A stretch of DNA of 47,845 bases from Sulfuritalea sp. (GTDB lineage: Bacteria > Pseudomonadota > Gammaproteobacteria > Burkholderiales > Rhodocyclaceae). The stretch is taken from the NCBI RefSeq assembly GCF_017302275.1, contig NZ_JAFLDR010000031.1, positions 1-47,845 on the forward strand. The letters run 5' to 3'. How positions within the stretch are numbered: the stretch's first letter is position 1; the number at the start of each line of letters is the position of its first letter. This document shows, piece after piece, positions 34,246-43,533 of this stretch. Made by a program: the position numbers and the translations under genes. The notes under the pieces were generated by a model that was given only the letters and a program-made list of their open reading frames with translations, made no database searches and had not been told where the DNA came from.

Positions 34246-35148
34246 ATGCCTGCCAGCCTCGAAGGCCAGCTTGTCGTCGCGCTTTCCTCGCGCGCGCTGT
34301 TCGACTTCGAAGAGGAAAACCGCGTCTTCGAGGACCAGGACGATTCCGCCTACATGCGACTGCAACTGGATCGCATGGACCAGCCGGCGCGGCCCGGCGT
34401 CGCCTTCCCGCTGGTGCAAAAGCTGCTGGCCTTCAACACGCCCGAGCGCCAGCGCGTCGCCGTGGTGATCCTCTCGCGCAATGACCCGGTCTCGGGCCTG
34501 CGCATTTTCAAGTCCGCCGAGGCCGCCGGCATGCAACTCGAGCGCGGCGTGTTCACGCGCGGCCGGCCGCCCTTCGGCTACCTCAAGCCGCTCGGCGCCA
34601 ACCTCTTTCTTTCCGCCAACGAAACCGACGTGCGCGCCGCGCTGGAAGGCGGCTTCCCCGCCGCACGCGTGTATTCGACGACGCTGAGCGAAGCCGAGCA
34701 GCACCCGCAGGAAGTGCGCATCGCCTTCGACGGCGACGCCGTACTGTTTTCCGACGAAGCCGAGCGCGTGTACCAGGAGCAGGGCCTCGCCGCCTTCCAG
34801 GACCACGAAGAAAGCCGCGCGCTGCACCCGCTGCCGCCCGGCCCCTTCCTTCCCCTGCTCGAAGCCCTGCACCGCCTGCGCGCCGACAGCGCCGGCTGCC
34901 CGATGAAAATCCGCACCGCGCTGGTCACCGCACGCAGCGCCCCCGCCCACGAACGCGCCATCCGCACCCTGATGGAATGGAAGGTCGAAGTCGACGAAGC
35001 CATGTTCCTCGGCGGCCTGGAGAAGTCGCGCTTCCTGCGCGAATTCGAACCCGACTTCTTCTTCGACGACCAGACCCGGCACTGCGAGCCGGCGTCAAGG
35101 CTGGTGCCGACGGGGCATGTGGTGAGCGGGGTGGCGAACTCCGAGTAG
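34246..35148 (+). CDS. Cytosolic 5'-nucleotidase (NT5C1-like)
   Basis: 300 residues. The N terminus MPASLEGQLVVALSSRALFDFE resembles the cN-I type, with the acidic motif LSSRALFDFEEENRV where a HAD-like DxD is expected. The C terminus EPDFFFDDQTRHCEPASRLVPTGHVVSGVAN is that of the bacterial 5'-nucleotidase family. Family enzymes remove phosphate from nucleoside monophosphates. The last about 100 bases are repeated as gene fragments further right (41780-41829 and 43404-43527), so this 3' end may mark an insertion site. The ATG at 34246 is the only sensible start. Confidence 0.75.
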   Translation: MPASLEGQLVVALSSRALFDFEEENRVFEDQDDSAYMRLQLDRMDQPARPGVAFPLVQKLLAFNTPERQRVAVVILSRNDPVSGLRIFKSAEAAGMQLERGVFTRGRPPFGYLKPLGANLFLSANETDVRAALEGGFPAARVYSTTLSEAEQHPQEVRIAFDGDAVLFSDEAERVYQEQGLAAFQDHEESRALHPLPPGPFLPLLEALHRLRADSAGCPMKIRTALVTARSAPAHERAIRTLMEWKVEVDEAMFLGGLEKSRFLREFEPDFFFDDQTRHCEPASRLVPTGHVVSGVANSE

Positions 35149-35259: not shown

Positions 35260-35511
35260 ATGACAACCTTGACCGTTACCTCCCGGGGACAAGTGACGTT
35301 CAGAAAAGAAGTGTTGCAACACCTCGGCATCAGGCCGGGAGAAAAAATCGAGCTGGACTTGCTGCCGGACGGTCGGGGCATGCTCAAGGCGGCCAGGCCT
35401 GCCGGAAAGATAGATGGCTTCGTCGGATTGCTCGCCGGCCGGTCAAAGAAAGTCGCCACCATTGAAGAGATCAACGCGGCAAGCGCACAGGGCTGGGCCG
35501 GCGAGGAATGA
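35260..35511 (+). CDS. AbrB/SpoVT-family antitoxin (VapB-like)
   Basis: 83 residues. The swapped-hairpin DNA-binding fold is visible in LTVTSRGQVTFRKEVLQHLGIRPGEKIEL. The C-terminal tail (VATIEEINAASAQGWAGEE) is what would wrap the toxin. It overlaps the next gene (ATGAGG), the usual vapBC arrangement. It is expected to repress its own promoter and neutralise the PIN toxin that follows. Confidence 0.85.
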   Translation: MTTLTVTSRGQVTFRKEVLQHLGIRPGEKIELDLLPDGRGMLKAARPAGKIDGFVGLLAGRSKKVATIEEINAASAQGWAGEE

Positions 35512-35903
35512 GGATCGCCGTCGATACCAACGTGCTGATTCGTGCCGTCGTGCGCGATGACTCAGTGCAAGCGAAAGTCGCCGCCAAAATTCTGACCAAG
35601 GCCGAATTGATCGCGGTGGCATTGCCATGTCTATGCGAGTTTGTGTGGGTGCTGCGCAAAGTTTACGGCTTCACCGTCGCCGACGCAGCCAGCGCGATCC
35701 GGGCACTGCTTGCCGCGGCCAATGTGGAAGTCAACCGCCCCGCCGTCGAGGCCGGCCTGTCGGTACTCGAAGCCGGCGGGGATTTCGCCGATGGTGTCAT
35801 CGCCTACGAGGGCTGCTGGCTCGGCGGGGAAACCTTTGTTTCCTTCGACAAGAAGGCGGTTTCGCTGCTCACGGCGGCAGGCCAGTCGGCGCGCCTTTTG
35901 TAA
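35508..35903 (+). CDS. vapC: PIN-domain toxin (VapC)
   Basis: 131 residues, PIN nuclease. Acidic residues are visible in IAVDTNVLIRAVVRDD, in the middle LCEFVWVL, and in FADGVIAYEGCW and FVSFDKKA. VapC toxins cut specific tRNA or rRNA sites; the target is unknown here. It starts inside the end of the antitoxin gene. The pair looks intact. Confidence 0.88.
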   Translation: MRIAVDTNVLIRAVVRDDSVQAKVAAKILTKAELIAVALPCLCEFVWVLRKVYGFTVADAASAIRALLAAANVEVNRPAVEAGLSVLEAGGDFADGVIAYEGCWLGGETFVSFDKKAVSLLTAAGQSARLL

Positions 35904-36009
35904 TTAGGGACGGAATTTGCGGATGCATGCGTAGAAGTCTCATTCGAGGCACCGCGATAGAATCAACGCAATTCGCAATACGCGAAACAACCAGCACTCA
36001 GGTGACCCC

Positions 36010-36303
36010 ATGAAACCTTCCGTGGCCTTGCAGGCACATCGAGACCGGATTCGAAGCGTGGTGGAAAGCCACGGCGCGCGCAACCCGCGCGTATTCGGTT
36101 CCGTCGTCCATGGCACGGACGGGGAAACCAGCGACCTCGACCTGCTGGTCGATCCCATCGAAGGCCGAACCACGCTGTTGAGCCTGGTGCGCATCAAGCG
36201 CGACATCGAGGCGATCACCGGCGTCGCCACCGACGTCCTCACGCCGATGTCCCTGCACGAACGCTTCCGCCAGGCCGTGCTGGCCGAAGCGCTGCCCGTA
36301 TGA
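36010..36303 (+). CDS. mntA: MntA-type nucleotidyltransferase antitoxin
   Basis: 97 residues. The minimal nucleotidyltransferase motif GSVVHGTDGETSDLDLLVD (GSX10DXD type) is intact. In the MntA/HepT module this enzyme adds AMP to a Tyr of the HEPN toxin and thereby silences it. It overlaps HepT by ATGA (36300-36303). The residues needed for catalysis look complete, so the module may be functional. Confidence 0.88.
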   Translation: MKPSVALQAHRDRIRSVVESHGARNPRVFGSVVHGTDGETSDLDLLVDPIEGRTTLLSLVRIKRDIEAITGVATDVLTPMSLHERFRQAVLAEALPV

Positions 36304-36656
36304 AAGACAAGGCACGCCGCATCCCCGAGCGGCTGCAGGACATGCGCGAGGCGATTGCCAACGCCCGCGACGACCTTGGCGCCCTGACCAAAGAGGAATT
36401 CCTCGCTGACGGCAAGACCCAACGCGCCGTGCTCGAAAGTCTGATCGTCATCGGCGAAGCCGCCAACCGTGTCATGCGCCTCGATCCCGTGCTCGCACAG
36501 CGCAACCCCGATGCCTGGCAGCAGTTCCGCGACGCCTACGACATGCGCATCGTCCTGACCCACGAATACTTCCGCGTCGATGCCGCCGTGGTCTGGGAGA
36601 CGGTCAAGAACGATCTGCCGCAGCTGAACGCGCTGGTCGAATCTTTGTTGGGCTGA
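36300..36656 (+). CDS. hepT: HEPN-domain toxin HepT
   Basis: 118 residues, mostly helical. The HEPN active-site motif appears as RIVLTHEYF, that is R-x4-H-x-Y, including the Tyr that MntA-type partners modify. HepT acts as an RNase; the published example cuts tRNA. It follows mntA with a four-base overlap. The dispersed short repeat begins about 30 bases after the stop. Confidence 0.88.
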   Translation: MKDKARRIPERLQDMREAIANARDDLGALTKEEFLADGKTQRAVLESLIVIGEAANRVMRLDPVLAQRNPDAWQQFRDAYDMRIVLTHEYFRVDAAVVWETVKNDLPQLNALVESLLG

Positions 36657-36685: not shown

Positions 36686-36713
36686 ATGAAAGTCGGCGCT
36701 GGCGAGACGGCGA
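36686..36713 (+). repeat. Short dispersed repeat copy after hepT
   Basis: The sequence ATGAAAGTCGGCGCTGGCGA then GACGGCGA matches the core of the other copies, with one base different. It lies between hepT and the convergent helicase gene. Another 21 bases on is AATTCGAAGCTGACCCC (36734-36750), matched in inverted orientation by GGGTCAGAGTGATTTGAATT (39671-39690) beyond the helicase gene's start. Confidence 0.7.
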
Positions 36714-36778
36714 TTCAGATGGGTTTGGAAAGTAATTCGAAGCTGACCCCAAATAGCTCATTAAGACGACATCGATTG

Positions 36779-39241
36779 CTAGACGGTATCAAATACACCC
36801 TTACCGACACGCGAAAGAAGTTTCTTTTGATAACAGGTCGAAACGGCGTTCGAGACGACGCTCTTCCAAGCTGCCTCCGTCATAGCGCCTTGGATCTCGC
36901 CGTATCTTTCGTACCATCCCTTTGCAAGACTCGCCGTTTCGATTCGTGTTCCAATCGGCACTAGTGCAATCTGCGACTGAACCAGAGCGAGCGCAGCACG
37001 GTAGATGATCCGCCCCCCAGGATGTCCCATGTCGGGTAACTCGCGGACACCGTTTTCTGCGACATATCTGCGTGCTCGGTACGCGGCTAGTGAGATGGGT
37101 AGTGCACCAAGCTGGGCGGGAGATGCCTTTCCTTTACTGCTCCTCTTAACGATTTCGTCCAACACGCCTAACCGCGTCAGAACTTCCGGTCCAGGCCGCT
37201 CGCTACGCACAGACTCGGCTTCTGAGCAGAATACGCATTTCGGTCGGGCGCTGTCATAGTGCGGGGAGAAGCCGCAGCATTCGCACGTACGCAACATGAC
37301 ACCGCCGATCCCGGACAAGTGTTCGGCCAAGCTCGCCACCGGCTTCAGGTGTGAAAAGGTGTCTCGTGCTTCAGTGTTCCAATAGAACACCGGCCAATCG
37401 TAATGAGTTGCCAGAAAGTCCAACCAAAGGTCACCTTGTCCAAAATCGGAAAACTCGGCTACCCAAGCACCCCATGAAGAACACCAACCCAGTGCAATTG
37501 TGCTAAGTGGCAGCCATTCAATGTCGACGTTCTTGCGAATCATGTTGCAGGCAAGAGATGCCGCTCTGGCACTCTCGGCGCGGGTTCGATTATCGTCGTC
37601 CTGCAAGACGAGCTCCTGAAAGCGCTCCATCGTCTTCTGCCATCCAAGGACCTCGGCAACATACAGAGCAACGAACGCAGTAGTCGCGCGCGAGTAGGCG
37701 CAAAATAACTGCCCCTCACCCATTTGTTCAGCCCCCAAAACAATGACGACGGGTGCCTCCAGGCCGCGGAAGCGCGCGACCACCTCATGACGTACGCCAA
37801 GATTGTTTACCGTCGCTTCGCACTTCTCTGTTAGACCAAACTTGCTCAATACGACGATGTCGTCGCCATCGACGCCATCCGCCTTAAATTGCTGGACAAG
37901 ATCGATCATCGCCTTCCAATCGTCTTCTACAACCAACTCCCGAACCGTATCGAGTTCTTCTGGCCGCGGGCATTGCAGCTGGTACGGAACCGGCTTCACC
38001 TCCAATAGCCGTTCTGTTACAGCTTTTGGCGTTCGCAGGGCGATGGTCAAAAGGAATGGCGCGTCTACGCCGATGAGCCGGCAGAGGTCCTTCAACGACG
38101 TACCCGTTTCAAATGGAAAGACCTGCGTCTCATCGCAGAAGGCCAGAATTTTGCTGTCGCGAAACCATTCAAGCAGAACGGCATACCACTCTGGTCGAAG
38201 AGCCTGCGCCTCATCGAGAATGAGGACATCGTAAGACTCAAGCTTCTTATCCTTCAGCGCTGTGCTGAGGTCATTTGCACACTCGGTTTTGTACCATGCC
38301 TCATTGCCGAAGTCTCCGGGCAACCCACGGCGTTTCCGGGCTTGCGCACACATGCCATGCCAAGTCGATACCTGGCCTTCAGCAGGAGAGAAGTTCAATT
38401 GTTTCGCAAGGTAGTCAGTCAAGAGGTTGTTGAAGGTCAGTACCAAAACGCGCTTCCGCTGATGGACCAATTTTCGGGCGAGTGCAATCCCAATCAGAGT
38501 CTTCCCGGTGCCTGGCCAGCCCGTAATCACCATACGAGACTGCCGCAACGCGCCAGCCACCACTCTTTGCTGCTCTGTGGTCAGTGGCAGCCAGATGTAC
38601 GAGTCATAGAGTACCCGTGTACCCCATGTTGGCGAACCATCGAACTTCGGACACAACGTCCGGACCAGCTTGCCAAAGACAGCCTCCGTGAGGTTGACTG
38701 TATTCAGCGTTGCCTTCCAATACTGCATCATCTCCACAATCCGAGCGCCCAATTTCGGGACTTGGCCCTTGTCCACAACTATGCACTGGGGTGGGGTCAC
38801 TGAGACGTCGACAAGCGCTGTGCTGATAATTTCATCTCCGAACTCGCTATCGGGAAAGACGAGCCCGTACCCCATACGCAGCCTAAGGCTCTTATCGGTT
38901 CCAAGCCAATGCGCGAGCCCGTGCAAATTCCGTCTCGCCTGATGCACTGGGGCAATGCACTTGCCCGACTTGAGATGAATGAATTCGAGGCCGTCGACTC
39001 GATACCTACCGCTTTTGACCTCAAGCGCGAGGACACCAAGCTCGCGGTGAATGATTAAGAAGTCGATTTCGCCCGTTGGGGCAAACGACTCCGAGACCTC
39101 CTTTACGGCAGCACACAGCCACGGCAAGCTGTGCACGACGGTGAAGTCGTCGGACAGCTGGTCCTTTATGACTTTGAACAGGACCTTCTCGCCATAGCTC
39201 TCAGTCTCTAACGGCCCGAAGGCAGGAATCATCGTCGCCAT
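36779..39241 (-). CDS. NERD nuclease-SF1 helicase-zinc-finger fusion protein
   Basis: 820 residues from the ATG at 39241; a start at 39280 would add 13 residues. Residues about 10-200 form a NERD-type PD-(D/E)xK nuclease domain: GEIDFLII (near 57) and ALEVKSG (near 72) carry the D and ExK metal residues. An SF1 helicase follows: Walker A GWPGTGKTLIG (about 241-248), Walker B VLILDEAQAL (about 340-346), and a UvrD_C-like ARFRGLEAPVVIVL...YSRAT. The C-terminal about 150 residues carry a CECC...CVFC zinc finger (about 653-672). Base composition is visibly poorer in GC than the surroundings, so transfer is likely. Both nuclease and ATPase residues look intact. It sits alone among toxin-antitoxin pairs, suggesting defence or DNA repair; no known system was recognised. 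Confidence 0.85.
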   Translation of the reverse strand: MATMIPAFGPLETESYGEKVLFKVIKDQLSDDFTVVHSLPWLCAAVKEVSESFAPTGEIDFLIIHRELGVLALEVKSGRYRVDGLEFIHLKSGKCIAPVHQARRNLHGLAHWLGTDKSLRLRMGYGLVFPDSEFGDEIISTALVDVSVTPPQCIVVDKGQVPKLGARIVEMMQYWKATLNTVNLTEAVFGKLVRTLCPKFDGSPTWGTRVLYDSYIWLPLTTEQQRVVAGALRQSRMVITGWPGTGKTLIGIALARKLVHQRKRVLVLTFNNLLTDYLAKQLNFSPAEGQVSTWHGMCAQARKRRGLPGDFGNEAWYKTECANDLSTALKDKKLESYDVLILDEAQALRPEWYAVLLEWFRDSKILAFCDETQVFPFETGTSLKDLCRLIGVDAPFLLTIALRTPKAVTERLLEVKPVPYQLQCPRPEELDTVRELVVEDDWKAMIDLVQQFKADGVDGDDIVVLSKFGLTEKCEATVNNLGVRHEVVARFRGLEAPVVIVLGAEQMGEGQLFCAYSRATTAFVALYVAEVLGWQKTMERFQELVLQDDDNRTRAESARAASLACNMIRKNVDIEWLPLSTIALGWCSSWGAWVAEFSDFGQGDLWLDFLATHYDWPVFYWNTEARDTFSHLKPVASLAEHLSGIGGVMLRTCECCGFSPHYDSARPKCVFCSEAESVRSERPGPEVLTRLGVLDEIVKRSSKGKASPAQLGALPISLAAYRARRYVAENGVRELPDMGHPGGRIIYRAALALVQSQIALVPIGTRIETASLAKGWYERYGEIQGAMTEAAWKSVVSNAVSTCYQKKLLSRVGKGVFDTV

Positions 39242-39581
39242 AGTGACCCGGAAATTTTTTGCCGACGACGACTTGCGCACCGTCGCTGCAAATTTTTCGC
39301 CTTCCTCAATAGTTGCCGGTACGAGCTCGAAGCGACGAACCAGAGCAAGGCGAGCCTAACTCAAATCCATCGACAACAATCACGCTGTAAGCATAGCGGC
39401 ATATTCTTGGAATGTCAGCAACTGCAAGTTAGAACAATGTTAGTTTCCTACTTGTAGCGTGAGTTCCTGATATAGCGGTGGTCGACAAAGATTCAACGTC
39501 TTGAGCGGCGGCAATCAGCCGCATACTTGCCGCAGCACGTCAACCGTTTCAATAGTGGCTTTGGCCGATGACCCGACACTC

Positions 39582-39604
39582 ACCGTCGCGCCAGCGCCGA
39601 CTCT
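39582..39604 (-). repeat. Short dispersed repeat copy, reverse orientation
   Basis: On the minus strand this reads AAGAGTCGGCGCTGGCGCGA then CGGTG, a match to the repeat core with differences toward its end. It lies beyond the helicase gene's 5' end, facing the copy at 36686-36713, so the helicase gene is framed by two opposite copies. Confidence 0.6.
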
Positions 39605-39646
39605 TCGTATCCCGCCAATGGATCAAGGTTCCGGTCTGCCCGGCAA

Positions 39647-39690
39647 GTACCAAAGGGTCAGAGTACCAAAGGGTCAGAGTGATTTGAATT
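39647..39690 (+). repeat. Tandem 16-bp repeat GTACCAAAGGGTCAGA
   Basis: Two exact copies (39647-39662 and 39663-39678) are followed by GTGATTTGAATT. The GGGTCAGAG...AATT pattern resembles tags I recall beside REP-associated Y1 transposase genes, but no transposase is present here. An inverted relative lies at 36734-36750. Confidence 0.6.
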
Positions 39691-39700
39691 CTCTGCTCGA

Positions 39701-39799
39701 AATGTCGGCGCCAGTGACACGGCGATAAAGCCGGCCCCGGCAGGCCCGGGGCGGAGGAATCTCTCTGACGGAGCCACGGGCCTGCCGGTGATGGCCGGG
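39701..39799 (+). repeat. Palindromic cassette-boundary element 1
   Basis: It starts with the short repeat (ATGTCGGCGCCAGTGACACG then GCGA) and continues into arms CCGGCAGGCCC (39737-39747) and GGGCCTGCCGG (39778-39788) around a 30-base loop that includes GGGGCGGAGGAAT and CTGACGGAGCCAC. The loop is the same as in the copies at 40549 and 41685 except for a four-base-shorter middle. It ends just before the vapC stop. Confidence 0.8.
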
Positions 39800-39807
39800 G
39801 CAATCCC

Positions 39808-40209
39808 CTACCGGAACGGATTCAGCACAGCCATACCGAAGCGCTTGAAGTCGCCGACGTTGCGCGTCACCACGGTCAGTTTGCGCACCAGCGCGGTGGC
39901 TGCGATCATCGCATCCTCATAGACGGTATCGGACTGGCGGTGCATCAGCTTCGCCCACAGGCGGAAGGTCGCGGCATCCATGTTCAGCACGTTGTAAGCG
40001 GCGGCGACCTGATCCGCCCAGGATTCGATCTCGGCGGCCTTGGCCGGGTCCTGCTCTCGGGTGATCTCGATGCCGGCCTGTATCTCGCCGAGCGTGACCA
40101 CGGATATGTGCAGGTCGGCGTCGTCGACAGCTTCGATCCACGCCAGCAAGCCGCCATGCGGCCTCGGCTTGCGCAGTTCGGAGACGACGTTGGTATCGAG
40201 CAGGTACAT
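39808..40209 (-). CDS. vapC: PIN-domain toxin (FitB/VapC type)
   Basis: 133 residues. PIN acidic residues are visible in YLLDTNVVSELRKPRP, in the Glu of TLGEIQAGI, in YEDAMIAATAL and in TRNVGDFKRF. The 'RKP' start and the 'TRN..DF' ending are typical of the FitB branch. It is read from the same strand as its Phd-type antitoxin, which ends 7 bases upstream. Targets are not known. Confidence 0.9.
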   Translation of the reverse strand: MYLLDTNVVSELRKPRPHGGLLAWIEAVDDADLHISVVTLGEIQAGIEITREQDPAKAAEIESWADQVAAAYNVLNMDAATFRLWAKLMHRQSDTVYEDAMIAATALVRKLTVVTRNVGDFKRFGMAVLNPFR

Positions 40210-40216
40210 CGCGCAA

Positions 40217-40471
40217 CTACAAGCCGGCCGGGGTTCGGCGCCTTGCCTTGCCGCGCGCCGGCAGCGTCAGGGCCGATCGCGCCTCGTCGGAAAGCAGCAA
40301 CTGCTTCAGCGTCGGACGCGCCGTGGCATGGAGTCGTTTCCACTCCGCAATGGGCACCAGCACAGCCGTTTCCGTGCCGCGCCGGGTAACCACCTGCGGG
40401 CCTTCGCTGACGCAGGCATCCAGCAATTCGCTGAATCGGGCTTTGGCATCTTGTACGGGCCAAGTGTTCAT
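40217..40471 (-). CDS. Phd/YefM-family antitoxin
   Basis: 84 residues. It begins MNTWPVQDAKARFSELLDAC, the Phd/YefM pattern (DAKARFSEL), with a middle strand GPQVVTRRGTETAVLVPIAEW. The basic C-terminal tail (LPARGKARRRTPAGL) would contact the toxin. It is first in the operon with the PIN toxin and probably autoregulates it. The next element upstream on this strand is palindromic element 2. Confidence 0.9.
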   Translation of the reverse strand: MNTWPVQDAKARFSELLDACVSEGPQVVTRRGTETAVLVPIAEWKRLHATARPTLKQLLLSDEARSALTLPARGKARRRTPAGL

Positions 40472-40548
40472 GGCGATCTCCGATGACTAGTTACCTGACT
40501 AGTCTAGCCTCTGCCGACAGCTTGCGCAATCGGGCGCGGCAGTCGGCA

Positions 40549-40652
40549 AAAAGTCGGCGCCGGCGACACGGCGAAGGCCGTCACCGGCAGGCCCGGGGCG
40601 GAGGAATGTGAAACCCTGACGGAGCCACGGGCCTGCCGGTGAGGGCCGGGGC
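40549..40652 (+). repeat. Palindromic cassette-boundary element 2
   Basis: It has the short repeat at its left end (AAAGTCGGCGCCGGCGACAC then GGCGA), then arms GGCCGTCACCGGCAGGCCC (40576-40594) and GGGCCTGCCGGTGAGGGCC (40629-40647), with one mismatch between arms. The 34-base loop carries GGGGCGGAGGAATGTG and AAACCCTGACGGAGCCAC. It lies between the phd promoter side and the orphan higA stop. Confidence 0.85.
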
Positions 40653-40658
40653 AGGCGA

Positions 40659-40964
40659 TCAAGCGGTTTCAGGCAGATCCAGCGGCTCGATCTTCGCAAT
40701 CACCTTCTTCAACGCCTTCTCCGACGCCGCGAGATCGTATTGCGCCTGCATGTGCAGCCAGGATTCCGCGCTGCCGCCGAGCGCGGCGGCGAGGCGCACC
40801 GCCATGTCGGCGCTGACGCCGTTCTTGCCGTTGAGGACATTCGACAACGTCACGCGGGTGACACCGATGCGCCGGGCAAAATCGGTCACGGTGATTTCGG
40901 TGCCGGTGAAAACGCCATCCCTCAGCACTTCCCCGGGATGGGGTGGATTGTGCATGCGGGTCAT
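40659..40964 (-). CDS. higA: HigA-family antitoxin, orphan
   Basis: 101 residues, XRE-type helix-turn-helix. It begins MTRMHNPPHPGEVLRDG (the HPGEVL stretch is diagnostic of HigA) with VTDFARRIGVTRVTLSNVLNG as the DNA-binding motif. HigA normally follows a HigB toxin; here the gene upstream is another antitoxin, so no HigB is present. It is the last gene of the run that starts with the RelE-type toxin. Confidence 0.88.
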   Translation of the reverse strand: MTRMHNPPHPGEVLRDGVFTGTEITVTDFARRIGVTRVTLSNVLNGKNGVSADMAVRLAAALGGSAESWLHMQAQYDLAASEKALKKVIAKIEPLDLPETA

Positions 40965-40991
40965 CTCGTCGCTCGTTGGCCGGGATAGCGT

Positions 40992-41282
40992 TCAGGCCGC
41001 TTCCAGCGCACGCAGGACGGTCTTCGGTTCTTTCGCAATGATGTTGAGCAGCACCAATGCCGTGCCGCGCGGCGTGCGATCGCCGCGTTCCCAATGGCGC
41101 AGCGTGCCCAGGCTGATCGCGAACCGGGCGGCAAATTCCACCTGGGTCAGGCCCGTGAGGCGACGCACTTCCTTTACGTCGACCTGTGGCGCTACATGGA
41201 GCTTGACGCCCGCCTGCCTGCCCCGCTGATGCGCTATGGCCTCCTGCAACCCCTGCTTGATGCTTGCAAATGCCTTGCTCAT
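40992..41282 (-). CDS. XRE-family antitoxin (NadS-like)
   Basis: 96 residues with a helix-turn-helix, LTQVEFAARFAISLGTLRHWERGDRTP. Antitoxins of this kind lie downstream of a RelE/HigB-like toxin, as here: the start overlaps the toxin stop (41279-41282). The orphan higA follows 28 bases later. It should neutralise the toxin and repress the operon. Confidence 0.88.
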   Translation of the reverse strand: MSKAFASIKQGLQEAIAHQRGRQAGVKLHVAPQVDVKEVRRLTGLTQVEFAARFAISLGTLRHWERGDRTPRGTALVLLNIIAKEPKTVLRALEAA

Positions 41283-41620
41283 TTTTCGCCTCCTGCCAGA
41301 TCCTTGAGCAGACCGACCAGTTCGGCCAACTCGTTACGTTCCGCCTTGCTCAGATTGTCCTTTTCACCCTTGCCGAACATCGTCAGCAAATAGAGTGGAA
41401 TGCGGTCGCTGTGAAAGTAGTAGATCACCCGCACGCCGCCACTCTTACCCTTGCCGCCGCGTGCCCAGCGCAGCTTGCGCACACCGCCGGTACCCTGCAT
41501 CAGTTCGCCCGCTTTCGGCTGCGCCGAGAGGTAATCGATCACGTCCTTGCGCTCGACCTCCGACAGCAGGCGCTCGGCGCAACGGATGTATTCGGGCAGT
41601 TCGGCAACGGTGACCTGCAT
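41279..41620 (-). CDS. RelE/HigB2-family toxin
   Basis: 113 residues. Signature stretches are GGVRKLRWARGGKGKSGGVRVIYYF and LYLLTMFGKGEKDNLSKAE, typical of RelE-like HigB-2/NadT toxins, with the basic residues of the RNase surface. These cut mRNA on the ribosome. It precedes its XRE antitoxin with a four-base overlap. Element 3 lies upstream of it. Confidence 0.9.
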   Translation of the reverse strand: MQVTVAELPEYIRCAERLLSEVERKDVIDYLSAQPKAGELMQGTGGVRKLRWARGGKGKSGGVRVIYYFHSDRIPLYLLTMFGKGEKDNLSKAERNELAELVGLLKDLAGGEK

Positions 41621-41684
41621 CTAGTTATACTAATCCATTGGATTAGCCGTGTCGACCCCGCTTCGGTAGATGGGCAACATCCGA

Positions 41685-41784
41685 AGAGTCGGCGCCGGCG
41701 ACACGGCGACGAGGCCGGCGCCGGCAGGCCCGCGGCGGAGGAATGTGAAACCCTGACGGAGCCACGGGCCTGCCGGTGACGGCC
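41685..41784 (+). repeat. Palindromic cassette-boundary element 3
   Basis: It starts AGAGTCGGCGCCGGCGACAC then GGCGA, followed by arms GGCCGGCGCCGGCAGGCCC (41713-41731) and GGGCCTGCCGGTGACGGCC (41766-41784) with two mismatches. The 34-base loop differs from element 2 at one base. It lies 64 bases beyond the toxin gene's start and runs directly into the nucleotidase fragment. Confidence 0.85.
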
Positions 41785-41829
41785 GGCGATGCTGGTACCG
41801 ACGGGGAATGTGGTCAGCGGCGTGGCGAA
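41780..41829 (+). pseudogene. Remnant of a 5'-nucleotidase gene 3' end (short copy)
   Basis: Bases reading CGGCCGGCGATGCTGGTACC then GACGGGGAATGTGGTCAGCG match the fragment at 43475-43527 almost base for base, and the 3' end of the intact gene (35094-35138) with a few changes. The reading frame is broken, so it is not expressed. Its presence next to element 3 and upstream of the HDOD gene suggests a boundary of an inserted segment. Confidence 0.65.
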
Positions 41830-41981
41830 TCAAGGCTAAGCCGCTCGCCGGTGGTTGGCATCGGCCGGACGCCTGATCGAACTGCCTTGAGCGGACCGAC
41901 ACGCCGGGTCGGTAGCCCCGGTCCGGCGGGGACGCCTTAGAATGATGGCGTCCCGATTGCGAAGGCGTTGATCGCCAAACC

Positions 41982-43406
41982 ATGCTGCGAGCCCTGTTCT
42001 CCAGATTAATGGGTGGCCGTCCATCGCCCGCACCCGCCAAGTCCGTATCCGAGATCGATACGGGGCGGCTGGATGCCGTTGCGCCGGAGCGTGTCGCCGC
42101 GCCCGCCGAGCAGGGCGCGCAATCGGCGCAGTCGTTTCTTTGCCGCGAGGTGGTGCTCGACGGCGATCAGGGCGTGGCCGGCTACGAATTCCAGTTGCGG
42201 CGGGGTGCCGGAAGCCGCTTGCTGGCGCAGAGCAGGCGGGTGCAACATCTGCAGAACGAGGTGCTGGTGCGCAATCTCGTCCAGCATGCCGTGCACAAAA
42301 TGCTGGGCCCGCGCGTTACCTTCGTGCCGGTGATTGACAGCTTCGCGGCCAGCCCGGTGCTGCGGCAGATGCCCCCCCACGGTGTCGTCATCGTCTTGCA
42401 GCAGGGGACGGGCGAGAAGCCGGATGGCACCGAGTTGCTGGACCAGGTGCGCGAACTCCGGCAGGCCGGCTTCTGCGTGGCTCTGGAAGAGTGCTTCGAC
42501 GCGCCCTATTTCGGCCAGCTGGCACCGACGGTCGACTATTTCGTGGTCGACGTGGCGGCGCGCAATCCGGTTTCGCTGCGCATGTTGATGGCTGGCCTGG
42601 CGAAGATCAACCCGGAAGCGACGACGGTCGCCAAGGGGGTGTCCGGCCCGGAAGATTTCGAGGTGGTACGCAAGCTCGGCTTCAAGCGCTTTCAGGGACC
42701 CTTCGTGACGCGCCGCGAGGACTGGAAGACGAACACGCTCGCGCCGGACGGCCTGAGGGTGTGCGAACTGCTCAACCGCCTGCGTCGCGACGCCGATACG
42801 GAAGACCTGGCGAACATCATCCGGCTTGATCCCCTGCTTTCCTTCCGCATGCTCCGCTACCTGAACTCCGCCGCCTTCGGCTTGCAGAAGAAGTCTGCGT
42901 CGGTCAAGGATGCCCTGCTGATGATGGGCCGCTCCCAGCTCTACCGCTGGCTGACGCTGCTGCTGTTCCACACGGGGAATAGCAGGGAGGGCGCGTCCGC
43001 GTTGATGGAGACCGCGCTGCTGCGGGGACGATTCATGGAGTTGGCCGGCCGGGGCCTCGCGAGCCCGGCGCTGCGCGAGGGACTGTTCGTGACCGGGCTG
43101 TTCTCGATGCTGGATCTGGTGCTGAAAGTGCCGTTGACCGAAGTCCTGCGCCAGGTCCAACTGGCGGAAGAGATTCCGGCCGCGCTGCTGCACAACGAGG
43201 GGATTTACGCGCCCTACGTGGAACTGGCGCTGGCCAGCGAGTCCTTCGACCAGGAACGTATCGCTGCAGCCGCCGCGGCATGCGGCCTTGACGCGGAGGC
43301 GGTCAACCGCTGCCAGGCCGAGGCCTTGCATTGGGCGCAGCAGGTCGAGACGTATCCCGGAAATCACGCCGCCGGAGCCGCGCCGACCATGGGATCCAGG
43401 CGGTAG
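41982..43406 (+). CDS. EAL-like/HDOD signalling protein (YuxH-like)
   Basis: 474 residues. After a linker of about 50 residues the region FLCREVVLDGDQGVAGYEFQLR to about residue 240 has an EAL-like fold. The catalytic acids of real EAL enzymes are not obvious, so it may be a degenerate c-di-GMP domain. From about residue 255 an HDOD domain follows: LANIIRLDPLLSFRMLRYLNSAAFGL and ALLMMGRSQLYRWLTLLLF. YuxH-like proteins act in nucleotide signalling. It is framed by two copies of the nucleotidase fragment in the same orientation, so it may have been inserted as a unit. The stop at 43404-43406 adjoins the second copy. Confidence 0.8.
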   Translation: MLRALFSRLMGGRPSPAPAKSVSEIDTGRLDAVAPERVAAPAEQGAQSAQSFLCREVVLDGDQGVAGYEFQLRRGAGSRLLAQSRRVQHLQNEVLVRNLVQHAVHKMLGPRVTFVPVIDSFAASPVLRQMPPHGVVIVLQQGTGEKPDGTELLDQVRELRQAGFCVALEECFDAPYFGQLAPTVDYFVVDVAARNPVSLRMLMAGLAKINPEATTVAKGVSGPEDFEVVRKLGFKRFQGPFVTRREDWKTNTLAPDGLRVCELLNRLRRDADTEDLANIIRLDPLLSFRMLRYLNSAAFGLQKKSASVKDALLMMGRSQLYRWLTLLLFHTGNSREGASALMETALLRGRFMELAGRGLASPALREGLFVTGLFSMLDLVLKVPLTEVLRQVQLAEEIPAALLHNEGIYAPYVELALASESFDQERIAAAAAACGLDAEAVNRCQAEALHWAQQVETYPGNHAAGAAPTMGSRR

Positions 43407-43527
43407 AAAAGCCTCACTTCCTGCTCGAGCCCGAACCCGACTTCCTCTTCGACGACCGGACCCGGCACTGCGAGACGGCCGGCGAGGCTGGTGCCGACGG
43501 GGAACGTGGTCAGCGGCGTGGCGAATC
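43404..43527 (+). pseudogene. Remnant of a 5'-nucleotidase gene 3' end (long copy)
   Basis: The frame reads EKPHFLLEPEPDFLFDDRTR then HCETAG, matching the intact enzyme's EKSRFLREFEPDFFFDDQTR and HCEPAS. It then shifts by one base and goes on matching at the DNA level through GCTGGTGCCGACGGGGAACG. It stops about 10 bases before the end of the barrel gene on the other strand. It is therefore a decayed third copy of that gene end, in the same orientation as the intact gene. Confidence 0.75.
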
Positions 43528-43533
43528 GCCAGC

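Follow-up and report, generated by a model that had tools for sequence, protein, structure and literature searches.

Three palindromic elements of 99–103 bp, here called E1, E2 and E3, lie in the same orientation in a toxin–antitoxin (TA) island of Sulfuritalea sp., on a contig of 47,845 nucleotides analysed at its full length (NZ_JAFLDR010000031.1 of assembly GCF_017302275.1; hereafter the window). Each joins a repetitive extragenic palindromic (REP) sequence to a long hairpin. They are a real and partly new feature: the loop of the hairpin is conserved more than its stem, and the elements sit at recombination borders of the TA island. An earlier, sequence-only reading had described three palindromes of about 100 bp as possible borders of a mobile or recombining unit, perhaps a cassette or miniature inverted-repeat transposable element (MITE) family carrying TA pairs. 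On balance, we favour a composite REP/palindrome whose cassette-like look comes from recombination at repeats and not from a dedicated cassette system; a cassette reading is possible but less likely than recombination at repeats.

Anatomy and distribution of the composite elements

E1 (39700..39798, + strand) consists of a GTCG-tagged REP at ~39700–39725 and a long hairpin with its core at 39731–39794. E2 (40549..40649, +) and E3 (41684..41786, +) have the same build, with REPs at 40549–40574 and 41684–41709, and the start-to-start distances are 849 and 1135 bp. The short repeat and complementary arms claimed earlier were found again: a 26-nt left repeat is common to all three (88% and 96% identity to the reference copy), and arms of 23–24 nt, 83–92% complementary, are built around CCGGCAGGCCC/GGGCCTGCCGG. 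Near-identical loops hold for E2 and E3, which share the variant GTGAAACC, but not for E1, whose loop is 4 nt shorter with a different middle. In window coordinates, the right end of E1 lies 9 nt before the stop codon of a PIN-domain toxin gene and that of E2 lies 9 nt before the stop codon of a HigA-like gene; E3 starts 63 nt upstream of the start codon of RelE, and 222 nt separate its end from an HDOD gene. Gene calls here and throughout come from our own open reading frame (ORF) scorer.

Folded as RNA on both strands, as the sequence-only reading had suggested, E1, E2 and E3 were stable with z = −3.7, −4.9 and −5.1 on the + strand and −3.4, −5.0 and −4.8 on the − strand, and in each case 0 of 200 shuffles was as stable. 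An Rfam scan of 39000–42500 gave 0 matches at E ≤ 1 to known structured RNA families. In aligned copies, the REP-like left part reads AAAA-GTCG-GCGCYGGCGACACGGCGA and is followed by a hairpin part of ~77 nt, in which the loop (GGAGGAAT...CTGACGGA) varies little, as does one mismatch in the stem, and the stem mostly just pairs. The complete element occurs in the source genome (4.41 Mb in 88 contigs, of which the window is one) at these three places only; its left ~26 nt has dozens of further matches there.

This left part belongs to a dispersed family. Searching the complete relative G002 for the GTCG REP at ≤3 mismatches returned 342 + 340 = 682 matches against 0 + 1 for the reversed control, so that the left part, taken alone, has the copy number and size of a REP (>100 per genome, 20–40-nt palindrome). 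The tag is GTCG after purines, mostly AAAA or AAGA, and not GTAG or CGTC; the flank of genome-wide copies (n = 122) is without strong conservation. Among 142 sampled copies (G002 stretches L168–L207), 84 lie inside predicted ORFs. Explanation by REP sequences, which the sequence-only reading had named as something that would undo its proposal, holds by half: the left quarter of the element is such a dispersed repeat.

The intragenic copies have a strong frame bias, 39 of them reading VGAGDTA and 23 reading AVSPAPT-like on the other strand. The source genome's loci (L005, L011, L013 and others) have 26 of 42 copies inside predicted ORFs, and some genes with intragenic REPs are presumably hslU and trpC. 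This REP family may be intragenic in hundreds of genes per genome.

Two further REP-like copies, both missed by the sequence-only reading, lie at 36688–36714 and, left of E1, at 39579..39605 (− strand; repeat scan and pattern search). The latter copy is opposite in orientation; together with the left end of E3 it makes an inverted pair (39580–39619 / 41670–41709; 40 nt, 78%) that encloses both TA modules. The elements themselves are direct repeats. Between HigA and XRE, the segment 40978..40990 (+) is a possible relic of an element right end, a suggestion drawn from junctions: its GGCCGG (40978–40983) looks like the end of a lost fourth element, and four relatives carry a full element or a REP directly 3' of XRE. 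Other repeats occur nearby. A tandem 16-bp AGTACCAAAGGGTCAG occupies 39646–39677, and a GCTATTGGGGTCAGAGTGAATTGAATTC-like repeat lies upstream of several elements in relatives (e.g. L079, L080, L081 and L083) and resembles the GGGGTCAGAGT ends of some REP-associated tyrosine transposase (RAYT) genes in the genus.

A covariance model gave 41 matches, among them all 29 copies from which it was built, at 40 places (G010:C181 is counted on both strands) in 22 of 31 Sulfuritalea genomes. Among 150 genomes of the family, matches occurred in 4, all Sulfuritalea (1 of 68 genera); on present evidence, the composite of REP and hairpin is genus-specific and the hairpin loop is not. The loop pattern was found order-wide in 3 of 399 genomes, namely the source genome, G453 and G295, and the matches in the last two are stemless (L134, L136). 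Among named genomes, a pattern scan yielded 19 stretches; 17 came from records of Sulfuritalea sp., Rhodocyclaceae, Rhodocyclales bacterium or uncultured beta proteobacterium; the other two (L094, L097) have no stem around the match. A plasmid collection held no match for one relative's hairpin or for E2, and viral contigs held none for the loop pattern, which fits the loop of locus L233 (the phage collection was not searched).

Most elements lie in one region. It begins behind a 5'-nucleotidase gene, detected in 24 of 31 genomes, and in many genomes it extends to an EamA transporter gene, detected in 20 of 31 (in the source genome on another contig). Outside this region, elements were found in L070 flanked by genes for SAM synthetase and a beta-lactamase-fold protein, in L071 next to a PIN/Phd pair with different surroundings, and in an MmeI-like gene. 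Non-TA neighbours of elements also include EamA and a 341-aa gene that matches no Pfam family, and some elements are located upstream of EamA and of HigB-like genes. In a set of 37 matches whose counts are not independent, since orthologous sites recur, and in which the G010 element is counted in both orientations, 3 lie inside the MmeI-like ORF and 23 have the 3' end of a gene on their right; for 21, the stop codon of the right-hand gene is no more than 30 nt away, and for eight the distance is exactly 9 nt. On the gene strand, elements often come 8–12 nt after the stop codon. Relative to the nucleotidase or EamA gene, 26 have the same orientation and 1 the opposite, again with recurrent sites, and 12 of 12 REP-only model matches agree.

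A conserved loop on a free stem

Hairpins within the genus are nearly identical and consequently covary little (7 of 24 pairs; covariation term −0.01). A broader set of 14 hairpins from several loci and three genera was picked from 20, with 6 near-duplicates dropped, after a filter for ≥9 paired arm positions, which favours pairing but cannot create sequence change. In this set 91.8% of cells pair, and 16 of 21 pairs have changed on both sides. The covariation of 0.486 compares with 0.199 ± 0.022 after shuffling (0 of 500 reach it) and with ≤0.117 when the alignment is slid. The covariation that the sequence-only reading had proposed to look for thus shows once hairpins from other places are included. 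Columns without any change are two G in the closing pairs and, within the loop, AG, AAT, CTG and CG.

The loop also marks stemmed structures on its own. Across 2.02 Mb of loci, some of them overlapping, the exact loop had 25 distinct matches, 14 with a strong stem, against 1 and 2 matches for reversed and swapped controls, none stemmed; at ≤2 mismatches, 17 of 1508 matches were stemmed, against 0 of 491 (reversed) and 0 of 1565 (swapped). Sulfuritalea hairpins with the same loop and different stems lie inside an MmeI-like type IIL restriction–modification gene (PF20473 and others), and in two other genera (L233 of G582 and L226 of G118) still other stems bear it, so that the hairpin itself cannot be called genus-specific. 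Within the MmeI-like genes, loop polarity is sense in five Sulfuritalea copies and in L233 and antisense in L226. Because polarity in L226 is opposite relative to the same kind of gene, we favour a role at the DNA level over one tied to a single strand of the transcript.

Several observations touch the same structures. Long hairpins lie in the linkers of MmeI-like restriction enzymes in other genera (L216, L226, L229, L230 and L233). A second loop type, CCGACCGANGCATTCG...GCTAANGAGGGCGG, is present twice in L216 and also in L230; at one site, similar stems bear different loops in L226 and L216. In Sulfuritalea, the loop of the G010 element (L088) is inverted relative to the flanking REP remnant when compared with the similar element of G025 (L089). 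A kink-turn-like loop was considered by eye against the Kt-7 motif and set aside, the required second helix being missing.

Module reassortment and its explanations

When the genes of 47 loci were clustered, intact modules appeared in changing order. Listing what lies between successive copies in relatives, as the sequence-only reading had advised, revealed different modules, and the changes coincide with elements. On the upstream side of Phd, 13 copies have eight different neighbours, and 11 of the 13 junctions carry an element or REP; PIN–Phd (7/7) and XRE–RelE (5/5) were never separated. Pairs of junctions at the same gene end shared their partner in 75 of 376 cases with both junctions marked by an element or REP, and in 1533 of 2138 with neither marked. 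These pairs are not independent of one another, and conserved backbone genes among the unmarked junctions raise the same-partner rate of that class. Ends of pairwise alignments cluster likewise: among 25 loci, 186 of 934 ends fell within 15 bp of an element or REP, compared with 49 ± 20 after permutation (largest value 121 in 500 permutations). These ends are not independent, region limits were set by simple rules, some of the 25 loci contributed the nucleotidase only, and L069 and L133 overlap. With intergenic ends alone, 186 of 835 were near an element or REP against 112 expected.

Orthologous module ends differ in what they carry. Directly 3' of XRE, L074 and L084 have a full element, L073 has a REP and arm base without the hairpin, and L090 has a short REP. 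The 341-aa gene is followed by a full element in L075, L080, L090 and L092 and by a solo form that keeps the right-arm TGACGG in L084 and L114. By eye, the joints of the solo forms lie at short CGG repeats, and we therefore read these forms as hairpin deletions. Orphan Phd genes (L084, L089, L090 and L117) have a REP at the place of PIN, and in L081 an element and a REP stand in tandem with 4 bp between them. The sole mobile-element gene among the scanned neighbours is a DDE_3 transposase in L083, beside one element.

We propose that the hairpin would be recognised as folded single-stranded DNA through its loop and mismatch, as by TnpA-REP and IS200/IS605 transposases, that it may have been spread by an enzyme of one of these kinds, and that it is perhaps still bound as single-stranded DNA. 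Spread in this form is suggested because loop and mismatch are conserved, the stem is free, and the polarity in L226 is opposite. Near-identical direct copies in the TA island would then allow homologous recombination or slippage to delete, exchange and import modules, and module borders would thereby come to coincide with elements. As hairpins at 3' ends, the elements may also mark or protect the ends of TA transcripts. In E. coli, REPs close to stop codons lower expression.

The known systems share some of these traits. REPs of the GTAG and CGTC superfamilies are described in Di Nocera 2013 (PMC3733652) as short palindromes with a fixed tetranucleotide beside them; they occur in many copies close to the 3' ends of genes, at times within ORFs or fused to other palindromes. 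The left part of our element likewise has a tetranucleotide-tagged palindrome, high copy number and intragenic copies, and the elements of the plastic region mostly stand at gene 3' ends (23 of 37). Unlike these REPs, it has GTCG as its tag and lies within predicted ORFs in 84 of 142 sampled copies, no RAYT flanked by the GTCG REP was found, and at the TA locus it is fused to a long conserved-loop hairpin. TnpA-REP and IS200/IS605 enzymes (PMC8266576) recognise folded single-stranded DNA via the loop and stem irregularities, with a tetranucleotide 5'. Loop and mismatch are just the parts conserved here, but the stem is far longer, the loop has ~20–30 nt, and no cognate transposase was found among 30 Y1_Tnp loci. 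Palindromes inside coding regions are also described for the Rickettsia palindromic elements (RPE; PMC3733652); compared by description only, the present case differs in that one family is both intragenic and at TA borders.

A set of results weighs against our preferred explanation. Junction pairs with one side marked have a still lower same-partner rate (54 of 759) than those marked on both sides, so neighbour change is not confined to marked junctions. Lagging-strand insertion of the REP could have given a replichore bias, and none was seen in 40 sampled 20-kb stretches of G002 (36 plus and 40 minus in one half, 29 plus and 40 minus in the other). The hairpin occurred at 0 of 30 fetched Y1_Tnp loci. 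Nine of these have a terminal repeat pair, GGGGTCAGAGT or GGGGACAGACCACG, and not the GTCG REP; GTCG REPs lie near many of the 30, but no close inverted pair encloses the gene, and the search for a cognate RAYT flanked by GTCG REPs among them came up empty. With loop types labelled by hand, type does not follow site (16 of 44 same-site pairs identical), nor does it significantly follow genome (9 of 13, P 0.14); neither inheritance by site nor homogenisation within genomes is supported, and hence gene conversion between copies is not. The near-uniform orientation of the elements, too, would also fit a site-specific system.

In a true cassette system, functionally similar to integron attC cassettes or dif modules, the hairpin would be a recombination site folded as single-stranded DNA, and a recombinase would insert and excise units of a TA operon plus its 3' element in one orientation. 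Integron cassettes (attC sites; clusters of attC sites lacking integron-integrases, CALIN) resemble the locus in that a folded palindromic site comes after the operon, the orientation is direct, TA modules occur and the order changes. Many modules here are indeed an operon then an element on the gene strand, often at 8–12 nt; the orientation (26 to 1), the reassortment with element borders, the L081 tandem, as after loss of a module, and the conserved loop on a free stem all suit it. Yet the absence of attC-type core motifs noticed earlier was upheld, since 0 of 38 element matches had boxes (consensus RYYYAAC/GTTRRRY) on both sides within 25 nt of their ends, and an attC/integron cassette was rejected on this count. 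Acinetobacter dif modules, which are shuffling modules on plasmids, many with TA genes, bounded by repeated 28-bp XerC/XerD target sites (PMC13141974), were rejected as well, with 0 matches in the window at ≤3 mismatches to a 28-bp XerC/XerD consensus. No integrase was seen among scanned neighbours, which included 22 of 41 unlabelled ones (attI was not sought). Some orthologous module ends lack the hairpin, and hairpins also lie inside the MmeI-like coding region. We regard such a cassette system as quite unlikely. A fraction less probable still is its most specific form, in which hairpins defined by loop and mismatch serve, as single-stranded DNA, a recombinase or HUH-type transposase that builds and reshuffles Sulfuritalea TA cassette arrays as an independent integron-like system; were it true, the loop of an integron-like system would also be used elsewhere in the family, inside MmeI-like restriction enzyme genes. 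Of the mobile or recombining unit proposed at the outset, the difference between species in module content and order at the elements has stood. A TA-carrying cassette or MITE family is so far unsupported, because the REP is dispersed, no attC boxes, no dif site in the window and no integrase among the scanned neighbours were seen, the hairpin is missing at some orthologous sites, and some neighbours are not TA genes.

Alternatively, each TA operon could bring along its own transcription terminator or 3' mRNA end structure, and the elements would stand at borders only because operons end there. The 23 of 37 matches that face a gene 3' end on the right, 21 of them within 30 nt of a stop codon, speak for this, as does the REP of E2, which is terminator-like on the minus strand (5-bp stem, then CCGACTTTTT). 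A terminator scan, however, gave 4 sites for the region where shuffled sequence gave 2.5 ± 1.6, and the long hairpin lacks a T tract. Elements were seen upstream of EamA and HigB-like genes too, and within coding regions, once in antisense there, and the REP is intragenic in the majority of sampled copies; we consider this explanation unlikely, if somewhat less so than a cassette system. Between the two in probability, and also unlikely, is a purely mutational history, in which functionless old palindromes have their arms kept complementary by template-switch correction and the island rearranges for unrelated reasons. Arms that change in concert, solo forms that by eye resemble slippage deletions between CGG repeats, and the loop inversion in G010 relative to its REP are what it would lead one to expect. 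Conservation of the loop and not the arms across genera is the reverse of the neutral expectation, and the clustering of alignment ends at elements also speaks against it. Recombination at composite repeats is, in our judgement, the explanation that holds on balance.

Gene content of the island and wider meaning

The two modules that the sequence-only reading had placed between the elements were recovered with Pfam profiles, all on the minus strand. Module 1 consists of a PIN-domain toxin (39808..40209; PF01850, E 2.4e-16) and a Phd/YefM antitoxin (40217..40471; PF02604, E 3.6e-17). The HigA-like antitoxin (40659..40964; PF01381, HTH_3) has no HigB partner in the window, and an adjoining HigB-like gene (PF05015) is present in the relative L078. 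Module 2 pairs an XRE-type antitoxin (40992..41282; PF01381, HTH_3) with a RelE-type toxin (41279..41620; PF06296, E 6.6e-7).

The plastic region of the genus opens with the 5'-nucleotidase (34246..35148, +; PF06189, E 2.1e-120). Two TA-like modules that had escaped the sequence-only reading follow at 35260..36656 (+; profile scan), MazE/PIN and nucleotidyltransferase/HepT, whose nucleotidyltransferase also matches PADLOC PDC-S09. The same island holds a NERD and helicase protein (36779..39280, −; PF08378, PF13245); its best PADLOC match is RTasNERD-Hel (5e-31), from a reverse-transcriptase defence system. On the far side of the region, tblastn identified a degenerate copy of the nucleotidase 3' end (43403..43532, +), likewise new, which covers residues 258–300 in two pieces of 67% and 76% identity. 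Partial extra nucleotidase copies surround the plastic region in the window and in L077, L081, L082, L116, L122 and L123; several represent its 3' end, which might point to integration or duplication at the end of the gene.

In the parts of the literature available to us, we recognised no report on Sulfuritalea TA systems, on REPs with TA modules or genomic islands, on integrase-free cassettes or on hairpins with a conserved loop and variable stem. Descriptions of REPs usually centre on the stem or a short tag; in the present hairpins it is the loop that stays constant between genera, and the stem drifts in compensated steps. A conserved loop points to a ligand or an enzyme and can serve as a handle in searching for it. 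Across about two dozen genomes, the locus documents how TA modules lose partners (orphan Phd, HigA) and change neighbours at repeats, and it can separate repeat-driven from integrase-driven assembly of TA arrays.

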